Under the pieces are notes generated by a model that was given only the letters and a program-made list of their open reading frames with translations, was not told the DNA's origin and searched no databases. This document shows, piece by piece, positions 9,528 through 63,150 of a stretch of DNA of 64,000 nt. Position numbers and translations under genes: made by a program. The first letter of the stretch is position 1. Every line of letters starts with the position of its first letter. The stretch lies in NCBI GenBank assembly GCA_002708445.1, contig PAOB01000034.1:1-64000 (forward strand), in the 5' to 3' direction. Source of the DNA: Candidatus Arcticimaribacter sp. Lineage in GTDB: Bacteria > Bacteroidota > Bacteroidia > Flavobacteriales > Flavobacteriaceae.

Positions 9528-10382
9528 ATGAAAAATCCTGTTCTTATCGAATGCCCTCGTGATGCCATGCAAGGCATGAAAAAATGGATCCCTACTCAAA
9601 AAAAAATAGGATACATACAATCATTACTTGAAGTAGGTTTTGATGTTTTGGATGTAGGAAGTTTTGTTTCCCCAAAAGCTATTCCTCAAATGAGGGACAC
9701 AGCAGAGGTGCTTCAAAGCATTGATCTTACTCATTCCAAAACTGAATTATTGGTTATTGTAGCCAATCTCAGAGGGTGTAAAGAAGCGGTTTTACACAAG
9801 AAAATCACTTACATTGGATTCCCTTTCTCAGTCTCAGAGAATTTTCAAATGAGAAATACACATAAAACTCAAAAAGAATCATTATTACTTTTAAACCAAC
9901 TTATCGAACTTTGTGAGAGTCACGGGAAAAAGCTAGTTGTTTATTTATCTATGGGCTTTGGAAATCCATATGGAGACCCCTGGTCAGTACCCATTGTCAT
10001 GAATTGGCTAGACCTACTCATTGACAAGGGAGTTCAATTCATTTCCCTTTCCGATACTGTTGGAAAAGCAAAAGTTGAAGACATATCCTCACTATTTGAA
10101 GCCTCAATTGCTCAATACCCAGAGATAGAAATAGGAGCTCATTTTCACGCTCAACCCCAAAACTCATTCATAAAAATCAAAGCAGCTTATGATTCAGGAT
10201 GCAATCGTTTTGATGGAGCAATCAAAGGATTTGGAGGCTGCCCCATGGCAGCGGATGATTTGACGGGAAACCTACCAACTGAAAAACTTATTTCATTTTT
10301 CAACCAGCAAAACACACCCCTTAAGATTGATCCTTTAAAATTTGAATACTCTTACAATAAATCACTTACTATTTTCACTTAA
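9528..10382 (+). CDS. Hydroxymethylglutaryl-CoA lyase
   Basis: 284 aa DRE-TIM metallolyase that splits HMG-CoA into acetoacetate and acetyl-CoA, the last step of leucine catabolism. The N-terminal strand carries IECPRDAMQG with the catalytic Arg-Asp, the barrel carries GAHFHAQPQNS with metal-binding His-x-His, and the flexible-loop cysteine is in GFGGCPMA. These separate HMG-CoA lyase from homocitrate and isopropylmalate synthases. It follows the LysE gene by 22 bp on the same strand and could share its transcript. No other leucine-degradation genes are in the window. Confidence 0.92.
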   Translation: MKNPVLIECPRDAMQGMKKWIPTQKKIGYIQSLLEVGFDVLDVGSFVSPKAIPQMRDTAEVLQSIDLTHSKTELLVIVANLRGCKEAVLHKKITYIGFPFSVSENFQMRNTHKTQKESLLLLNQLIELCESHGKKLVVYLSMGFGNPYGDPWSVPIVMNWLDLLIDKGVQFISLSDTVGKAKVEDISSLFEASIAQYPEIEIGAHFHAQPQNSFIKIKAAYDSGCNRFDGAIKGFGGCPMAADDLTGNLPTEKLISFFNQQNTPLKIDPLKFEYSYNKSLTIFT

Positions 10383-10398
10383 AGTTAGCCTAACAAAA

Positions 10399-10428
10399 TT
10401 TGAGCTTGAGGTTTAGATCGTATATTTG
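10399..10428 (+). promoter_or_regulatory. Distal promoter: TTTG-N18-TATATTTG upstream of guaB
   Basis: -33 element TTTG at 10399-10402, an 18-bp spacer and -7 element TATATTTG at 10421-10428: the best full match to the Bacteroidota sigma-A consensus that I see here. A transcript from it would carry about 150 nt before guaB, including a 6-bp hairpin TGGTTT-TGG-AAACCA. It may serve guaB or an independent small RNA. Confidence 0.55.
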
Positions 10429-10549
10429 TACTTTATTTTTTGATTAGAATCTTGGTTTTGGAAACCATCTTTATTGATTTTAAAAGACCTTTTAAGATTT
10501 GATAATTAAAATTTACCATTTTAAAGGCGGTTAAAAGGGCATAATTCCT

Positions 10550-10557
10550 TAATTTTG
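10550..10557 (+). promoter_or_regulatory. Proximal -7 box TAATTTTG of guaB
   Basis: Exact TAnnTTTG, 27 bp before the guaB ATG. Near the start, GCAAC and GTTGC could form a small stem in the leader. No clear -33 partner. Confidence 0.5.
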
Positions 10558-10575
10558 CTTGCAACTAATTTCTAA

Positions 10576-12057
<1,482 letters not shown>

Positions 12058-61425: not shown

Positions 61426-61629
61426 TTACTCCATCTTTTCGTCCTTTTCTGTAAACATAATGGTTCTATTGCTCTTAGGAAGCTGTGATGAATCCACTAA
61501 TTTAAAAAATGCATCGACATCTTCCAATTTGTCTACATAGTAAATTAAGGCGTCATAATTTTCTTTTGTATATGAAAGGATAAGTCCAGAGATAATAAGT
61601 AAGACTAACGTTTGCTCTAAAGTTTTCAT
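61426..61629 (-). CDS. Short membrane-anchored hypothetical protein
   Basis: 67 aa with one N-terminal hydrophobic segment (TLVLLIISGLILSY) and a charged remainder. Could be a genuine small protein or a cassette-type ORF next to the attC-like element, or chance. No family recognised. The 250 bp between it and the acetyltransferase hold nothing I can support. Confidence 0.4.
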   Translation of the reverse strand: MKTLEQTLVLLIISGLILSYTKENYDALIYYVDKLEDVDAFFKLVDSSQLPKSNRTIMFTEKDEKME

Positions 61630-61820
61630 TATTATTCAATTTAAAATCCGCACTTCAACATTTTTTCAGGAGTATTGAGACTTACAAAATGCCACTAAAG
61701 AAAAACGTATTTTTTTGGCTTAACCCACTACAGACAATCATTTTTGTTTTCTCTTCACTTTTTTCTCCCAAGCAGAAAATGTTTTCTCGGGTTCTATTAG
61801 ACTTAGGGTTTTAATTGCCC

Positions 61821-61951
61821 ATAACGTCCATTCCACACTAAAACGTTAATTTGGTTTAGTGTGACGTTGTAATCAATTTTCCTAGGGTCGGGGCTTTGCT
61901 TTAGCAAAGTATAGCAACTAGGATTCAGCTTTTGCTGAAATTGATTACAAC
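61821..61951. other. attC-like multi-hairpin DNA element
   Basis: Two overlapping palindromic structures in 131 bp. Site A: ATAACGTC (61821-61828) pairs with GACGTTGT (61863-61870); inside, CACACTAAA/TTTAGTGTG (61834-61842 and 61855-61863). Site B: perfect 14-bp ends GTTGTAATCAATTT (61866-61879) and AAATTGATTACAAC (61938-61951), within them CCTAG/CTAGG and two mini-hairpins, CTTTGC-TTTA-GCAAAG and TTCAGC-TTTT-GCTGAA. The GTTGT block is shared, so the two folds exclude each other. AAC...GTT ends, inner stems and bulges recall folded integron attC sites. Next to a tyrosine recombinase pseudogene. Function inferred only. Confidence 0.6.
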
Positions 61952-61993
61952 TTGTTTATATCCGCATATTGCGTTTATTTCCTTTATATGTTT

Positions 61994-63150
61994 TTATACT
62001 TTTTTTATCTTAATGCTCTCATTATCATTACCTTGATATTCAATGATATGGTCTAGTATACTTTTAATATTTGCAAGAGATTTTTGACTCACATGCGTAT
62101 AAAACTCTGTAGTTTTGGAATTTCCATGCTCCAACAACTCTTGAACATATCTTAAATCTGTTCCTTTTTCCAACAAATGAGTTGCGAAAGAGTGTCTCAA
62201 CATATGAGGATAAATTCTTTTTTGAAAACCTGCTTTTTTTGCTGATCGCCTCAAGATAACTCGTATGCTAGATGCTGAATATTGTTTTCTGTTTGGGCTT
62301 TCAATCAACCAATAATTGGGATTGTATTTGTGAATATATTTCCTCAACAGCAATGCAATATTATCAGCCAGTAGTGTAATTCTATCCTTTTTCCCTTTTC
62401 CACCCCGAAGAAGAGATAGTTCTTTTCTCACACGATATCTTGTTCTCTCAGCCCAATGAGATCGCCTACTCTCAACCCACTAGAATATATAAGCGACAAA
62501 ATGGTTTTGTGTTATAGGTTTGATGTTTATTTGAAGATCAATAAAACCTCTTGTTCTGTCAATATTTCTGGTAGCTTTTTAGTTTTGTTAGGTCGCTCTA
62601 GTGTAAAAACCATTTTAGTTTGCTTAAGCACTTTTTCATAATAAAACTTAATGGCATTGATATATTGATTTTGTGTCGAAGAACTAACCTTTTTTTCTTG
62701 AATTAAATACAACAGAAATACCTGTATATCTTTTTTGGAAAGACGGTCAATGGACTGACCCATAAAAAAATCAAAAATTTTAAAAATACGAACAATAGGT
62801 TTTTATTGTATTTTACTGTAACGTTTTAAAACCAATTGTTCTCTATATAAAGACGATAGTCTTGGGATGGATTTTGGCTCATAGGGAATGATCTTTTTCT
62901 TTATGATATGGTTTACAGGTGAGTGTTTTTTAAGTTGAGAATAATCTATTAGAACACTATCCTCAAACGTTTGATAAAAAACATCCAATTGAAATTCTTT
63001 TGCTGGGAAATACCATGATTGTTGCGTTTGACTCCATCTCGCTCTCTTTTGCGACTTTACAAGTGCAATCAATTCTCGATCAAAGGCAAAGTCTAGCCTG
63101 ACAATCTTTTGTTGTCGATGGAGGTCGGGTAAAAGCCGTAGGTTTTTCAT
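61994..63150 (-). pseudogene. Decayed tyrosine recombinase/integrase
   Basis: Fragments in order from 63150: an N-terminal piece (MKNLRLLPDLHRQQ, RARWSQTQQSWYFPAK, ending KRYSKIQ-stop at 62803), then in another frame NTIKTYCSYF and SIDRLSKKDIQVFLLYLIQEKK, then [16 protein letters not shown] with the first catalytic Arg, and in a third frame [11 protein letters not shown] and [29 protein letters not shown] with His, Arg and the Tyr nucleophile. Premature stops at 62803, 62779-62781, 62770-62772, 62527-62529, 62512-62514 and 62428-62430, plus at least two frameshifts. Homologous enzymes of about 370-390 aa are common in Flavobacteria. Certainly inactive. Confidence 0.88.

Follow-up and report, generated by a model that had tools for sequence, protein, structure and literature searches.

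A probable 126-bp cassette without an ORF in the attI-like site of a decayed chromosomal integron of Candidatus Arcticimaribacter

The window, a stretch of 64,000 nt from a Candidatus Arcticimaribacter contig, carries on its minus strand a broken integrase gene followed by attI, a 126-bp cassette lacking an ORF (61950-61825) and older cassette DNA (Table 1). The tyrosine recombinase remnant that a first-pass annotation had placed beside the element is this integrase pseudogene. Two more homologous integrase relics were found in the same genome (G000:C14:5302-5703 and G000:C47:3728-4024). An attI of the same position and form (ATATAACCAGTTG) is present behind intact integrases, and the DNA similarity of genus-mates to the window ends at 61930-61957. 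The tag signature of the window consists of the cassette start GTTGTAATCAATTT at attI and the cassette end AAATTGATTACAACGTC; the cassette interior is possibly decayed. The 67-aa ORF after the conserved leader is a probable cassette ORF, for which no attC of its own was found.

Table 1. Features of the integrase-cassette region of the window
Feature	Coordinates	Strand	Remarks
Integrase pseudogene	61994-63150	-	Several in-frame stops and a frameshift (ORFs, family matches and frames read); intact orthologue 384 aa
Integrase pseudogene, catalytic part	61994-62431	-	
Integrase pseudogene, SAM-like part	62527-62763	-	
Integrase pseudogene, stretch in which the N-terminal domain lies	62803-63150	-	
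HARP/XPB-DRD-like N-terminal domain of the broken integrase	62911-63150	-	hhalign to domain profile A4, E 7.9e-17
attI-like site ...GCGGATATAAACAAG^TTGTAATC	61944-61975	-	3' of integrase; crossover after G at 61951
126-bp cassette, no ORF	61825-61950	-	Between attI and the next sequence
First 14-bp arm	61938-61951		Cassette start, R' side of the cassette's own attC
Second 14-bp arm	61866-61879		R'' side of the cassette's attC
Short attC-like site	61819-61872	-	R'' TTACAAC; 9-bp stem 61834-61842/61855-61863; R' GTTATGG; crossover G 61825
Cassette interior, two small hairpins	61880-61937	-	From fold
Start of next, older cassette: conserved leader, ~200 bp	61617-61824	-	Aligns to L098 and L102 from the attC crossover
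Small ORF after leader, 67 aa	61426-61629	-	No family match

The element had first been described as a perfect 14-bp repeat that encloses small hairpins, and this was confirmed: the arms at 61866-61879 and 61938-61951 are 100% complementary and were the sole inverted repeat of >=12 nt reported by an inverted-repeat search within 61500-62300. Folding of both strands, which had been proposed as a check, gave energies of -29.8 kcal/mol for the plus and -28.2 kcal/mol for the minus strand (z = -6.4 and -6.5, respectively), and none of 200 dinucleotide shuffles folded equally well. Of 2000 first-order Markov simulations of the surrounding 2.25 kb, 13 contained at any position a perfect 14-bp repeat within 160 nt, which makes the repeat by itself only moderately unlikely; its placement on the cassette boundaries is stronger evidence than the repeat itself. 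Adjacent to this repeat, a 9-bp stem is formed by 61834-61842 (CACACTAAA) and 61855-61863 (TTTAGTGTG), bordered by AACGTC/GACGTT, with the right half overlapping the 14-bp arm that starts at 61866. The second of two structures thought to be mutually exclusive does exist, but the exclusion is limited to the outer arm, and the minimum-energy fold holds the 9-bp stem and the 14-bp structure together. What did not stand was the reading of 61821-61951 as a single element, as this stretch comprises the short attC-like site (61819-61872) and the remaining cassette up to attI (G 61951). One cassette's attC has the 14-bp repeat as one half and the AAC/GTT hairpin as the other, a relation that had been overlooked. 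An assignment of the whole of 61821-61951 as one attC was rejected, the block within the 14-bp repeat ending in GTT...AAC, which is the wrong polarity for attC.

The active-site residues R, K, H, R, H and Y are conserved in the integrases of this type. They were matched by TIGR02249 below the cut-off and in two stretches that skip about positions 180-234, the IntI-specific insertion, and the spacing between their K-D-R and H-x-L-R-H motifs was 56-59 residues (63 in one) as compared with 100-105 in canonical IntI. The integrase lacks the roughly 40-residue IntI-specific insertion. Canonical IntI above the TIGR02249 cut-off was found in 0 of 150 Flavobacteriaceae genomes and in 21 of 61 genomes of a phylum sample; the latter count indicates that the search for IntI works, and both integrase types may coexist in other Bacteroidota. 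In their catalytic and SAM-like parts, the integrases were most similar in sequence to the Xer type (XerA), more so than to IntI, and the best-matching NCBIfam model is already named 'site-specific tyrosine recombinase/integron integrase'. Neither the Bacteroidota integrases as one clade (p 0.61) nor a clade of these with IntI (AU p 0.22) was rejected, and common descent with IntI is neither shown nor rejected by the tree.

The same integrase type was observed in Saccharibacillus kuerlensis DSM 22868 (Bacillota; L152, ORF 9926-11086), where the 2 kb past the integrase ORF contain three attC-like sites of 86 nt whose cassette tags match. The Spirochaetota MAGs L139 and L151 and the Undinarchaeales MAG L135 also encode integrases that have an N-terminal extension and no IntI insertion, although the archaeal record may be a binning error.

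The N-terminal domain comprises about 80 residues with a predicted beta-beta-alpha-beta-beta-alpha-beta order (mean confidence 88), and was modelled alone because Foldseek searches with the full-length protein were dominated by the catalytic part. Pfam HARP (PF07443) matched below cut-off in 3 of 23 sequences, with 18-19 bits in Bacteroidota versus 25 needed, and above cut-off (29.2 bits) in a spirochaete integrase of the same architecture, whose domain is homologous to that of Bacteroidota (hhalign E 3e-9). The N-terminal domain of the Saccharibacillus integrase was aligned to the Bacteroidota domain with an hhalign E of 4e-7. The HARP domain of SMARCAL1 (4o66) came first both in a PDB profile search (E 0.0039) and in Foldseek (probability 0.90, E 0.024), the following Foldseek matches including XPB N-terminal domains. 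The predicted fold and a sequence similarity that is weak but convergent suggest that the domain resembles HARP (SMARCAL1) and the XPB damage-recognition domain. HARP is known from ATP-driven annealing helicases working on replication forks. In SMARCAL1, it is the HARP domain that reportedly determines annealing helicase activity (Ghosal et al. 2011, cited in PMC9371921). No paper joining 'HARP domain' with 'tyrosine recombinase' was found in the literature covered, which was incomplete.

A search at E <= 1e-20 detected homologues of the recombinase in 106 of the 150 Flavobacteriaceae genomes. In closed genomes, an integrase of ~390 aa is followed by attI and then by an array of folded repeats separating ORFs of the same direction; in many draft genomes the 3' end of the integrase lies only a few hundred bases from the contig end, as expected where a repeat comes next. 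These homologous integrases and the arrays behind them bear out the earlier proposal that the site is attC-like and belongs to a lineage-specific, integron-like system of Flavobacteria. The attC sites in the arrays are mostly 120-125 nt long, some being about 45-65 or 185-215 nt, and share the plan [TC]AAC, 3-nt spacer, L stem, variable centre, L stem, ~6-nt spacer and GTT[AG]. A covariance model of the 125-nt form (R1) gave 166 matches across 20 loci and hits in 134 of 150 Flavobacteriaceae genomes (listed up to 23 per genome, a value of 23 standing for at least 23) and in 109 of 296 genomes of the phylum sample. The presence of integrase and attC was associated (104/2/30/14 genomes with both, integrase only, attC only and neither; OR 24, p 5e-7). 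At the window site itself R1 found no match with either default filters or filters off, and we assign it as a putative attC by anatomy and position; short attC sites of 45-63 nt do occur in related arrays.

If cassettes move as circles opened at G^TT, each cassette should begin with bases that agree with those preceding its own R'' core, not with those of its neighbours. Over 107 cassettes and seven positions beyond the core, 628 tag matches were counted; 10,000 permutations gave 328 on average and never more than 396. Position 10 matches almost never and positions 11-13 match again, from which an outer attC arm of ~14 positions follows. In 13 of 13 arrays, the tag of the first cassette was found at a GTT (attI) 35-177 nt past the integrase match, with 5-7 of 7 positions matching. 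The arrays also bear on whether the window site, instead of being part of a cassette platform, could be an attachment scar left by a phage or transposon through the action of this tyrosine recombinase. The integrase sequence, nearer to XerA than to IntI, would suit such an origin; however, intact homologues adjoin arrays of many cassettes with their own start and end tags and a single adjacent attI, a typical cassette has one ORF, and the cassettes read showed no evident phage or conjugation module; we consider this explanation very unlikely.

A search with the 131-bp block, also suggested in the first-pass annotation, found the block itself to be unique to the source genome among 19 genus members, being absent from the 18 genus-mates and present in no second copy in its own genome, but the block following it is shared and reveals the insertion. 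In L098 (genome G162), a window-like attI is joined directly to the post-crossover sequence TTATGGGCAATTAAAACCC..., and in L102 (G152) a different attI variant is likewise joined directly to TTATGGGCAATTAAAACCC...; in comparison with both, the window has exactly 126 bp extra, from G^TT to G^TT. These two empty sites are relic copies and not the lpd locus itself, L102 having another attI variant. A small MITE, or an IS derivative, ending in 14-bp inverted repeats would account for the perfect terminal repeat around a 58-bp interior, yet the DNA missing in relatives is 126 bp with G^TT/G^TT ends and not the repeat-bounded 86 bp, which excludes a simple transposon-like reading; as there is also no further copy in the source genome or its 18 genus-mates, we regard such an element as extremely improbable. 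A search of viral contigs with a 31-nt stretch of the cassette start returned none.

At the corresponding position in G152, next to the dihydrolipoamide dehydrogenase gene, lies an intact 384-aa orthologue of the integrase; the similarity of this locus to the window stops at attI. Other genus-mates retain at that locus just 35-68 residues of the integrase start, or 43 of its end; attC sites remain in L084 and L092, L084 consisting of an integrase stub and an attC at the locus. Among genus-mates, the flanking genes are joined almost directly at one extreme and lie about 17 kb apart at the other. From these comparisons, the most fitting reading of the locus is parallel decay of a chromosomal integron. 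The ~200-bp leader is common to the window (61617-61824), L098 (5565-5743) and L102 (99-313), the ORF past its ATG diverging, and was found joined to two different attI variants; it is possibly a cassette-borne expression or regulatory region.

Pairing in the attC family was assessed with A1, an alignment of 55 attC sites partly selected on the L stem. In A1, 94.5% of stem cells were paired and covariation was 0.428 versus 0.110 in shuffled alignments, the signal being lost when partners were slid. Helix 3 (columns 21-24/122-125) is the fairer test because it lies largely outside the L-stem selection; 95.4% of its cells were paired, and four of four pairs had changes on both sides. Only 4 G-U cells were seen in helices 2-3, the stems varying by Watson-Crick exchange, and this near-absence of G-U pairs fits a DNA rather than an RNA structure. 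An intrinsic terminator or RNA hairpin of neighbouring genes, which the strong folding of both strands would allow, can be given almost no weight, as Rfam gives no match at the site, no copies exist elsewhere in the genome, the location is between a pseudogene and cassette DNA, and homologous sites sit in cassette arrays with the DNA-like pattern of exchanges just described.

The element is, with a probability of about 0.9, a 126-bp cassette seated in the attI of a decayed chromosomal integron. The anatomy, the boundaries, the array context, the matching tags and the covariation are the observed part of this explanation. In the proposed mechanism, the integrase, a tyrosine recombinase of Xer-like type that lacks the IntI insertion but has a HARP/XPB-DRD-like N-terminal domain, would recombine the folded single strand of the cassette attC with double-stranded attI, cutting at G^TT, and the N-terminal domain would recognise the branched, folded attC. 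Insertion would split the cassette attC, bringing its R' half (TTGTAATCAATTT) to the cassette start beside attI and its R'' half (AAATTGATTACAACGTC) to the cassette end, beside the GTT from the neighbour. The two exclusive structures would arise because the attC of an integrated cassette is split in this manner, so that the shared R'' arm may pair either with its own cassette start (14 bp) or with the neighbour-supplied GTT half; in the excised circle, a presumed intermediate, the arms would pair over 17 bp. As the integrase is broken in the source genome, the site is probably silent and the window copy a relic.

By its anatomy the system is an integron and by its integrase it is not IntI, and we file it, on sequence grounds, as an integron variant outside the IntI family. 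It is like canonical IntI integrons (class 1, the Vibrio cholerae superintegron; VchIntIA 2a3v) in having an attI beside the integrase with a G^TT crossover, folded attC sites with R''/L''/L'/R' boxes and asymmetric spacers, and small same-direction cassettes in large chromosomal arrays. It differs from these in the integrase, with 58 versus 100 residues between K-D-R and H-x-L-R-H and an extra N-terminal domain, in the attI at the 3' end of the integrase gene, whereas the repeat signals near canonical IntI genes were mostly on the 5' side, and in the outer attC arm, which extends over ~14 positions and whose mismatch at position 10 is conserved. XerA/XerC/XerD (5hxy, 4a8e) are the top sequence match for the catalytic and SAM-like parts, but have no N-terminal domain, and the flavobacterial integrases, unlike them, adjoin attI and cassette arrays. 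The known role of Xer recombinases is to resolve chromosome dimers at dif. A broader reading, which we hold tentatively and at slightly less than even odds, is that of a second integron type, widespread among Bacteroidota and extending to Bacillota and perhaps spirochaetes, in which the integrase would be Xer-derived independently of IntI and a HARP-type fork-recognition domain would replace the IntI-specific helix for folded single-stranded attC.

Reviews name Bacteroidota among integron phyla without detail, and for Bacteroidetes proper the IntegronFinder 2.0 survey, which covered complete genomes, listed a single complete integron, that of Salinibacter (PMC9024848). In a survey of tyrosine recombinases (PMC8138268), conservation of the insertion was described as incomplete within an 'integron-like' subgroup; that survey deals with proteins, and no mention of the flavobacterial arrays or of the N-terminal domain was found in the passages covered. 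The arrays and the domain were nowhere found described in our coverage, outside which lie most subscription journals and all preprints, and a prior description elsewhere is possible. With cassette arrays in most sampled Flavobacteriaceae, a large gene-capture reservoir may be uncounted because searches look for canonical IntI. By a rule of long standing, integrases require the IntI-specific domain to be active (Messier and Roy 2001, cited in PMC4792948). The flavobacterial system offers a natural test of that rule, and if the HARP-like domain does the same job, two solutions for recognising folded single-stranded DNA could be compared.

The longest cassette ORF in relatives runs with rather than against the array direction in a ratio of 70:3, and 20 of 93 cassettes have no ORF of >=50 aa, the window cassette being likewise ORF-less. 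The co-inherited start and end tags, together with the clean 126-bp insertion, are a sequence signature of cassettes that would have been inserted and excised as units. In the L063 array, several different cassettes encode proteins that start with MIKFFRKIR and have a common GEI.LV..GILIA motif, and by their sequences these appear to be one family captured repeatedly.
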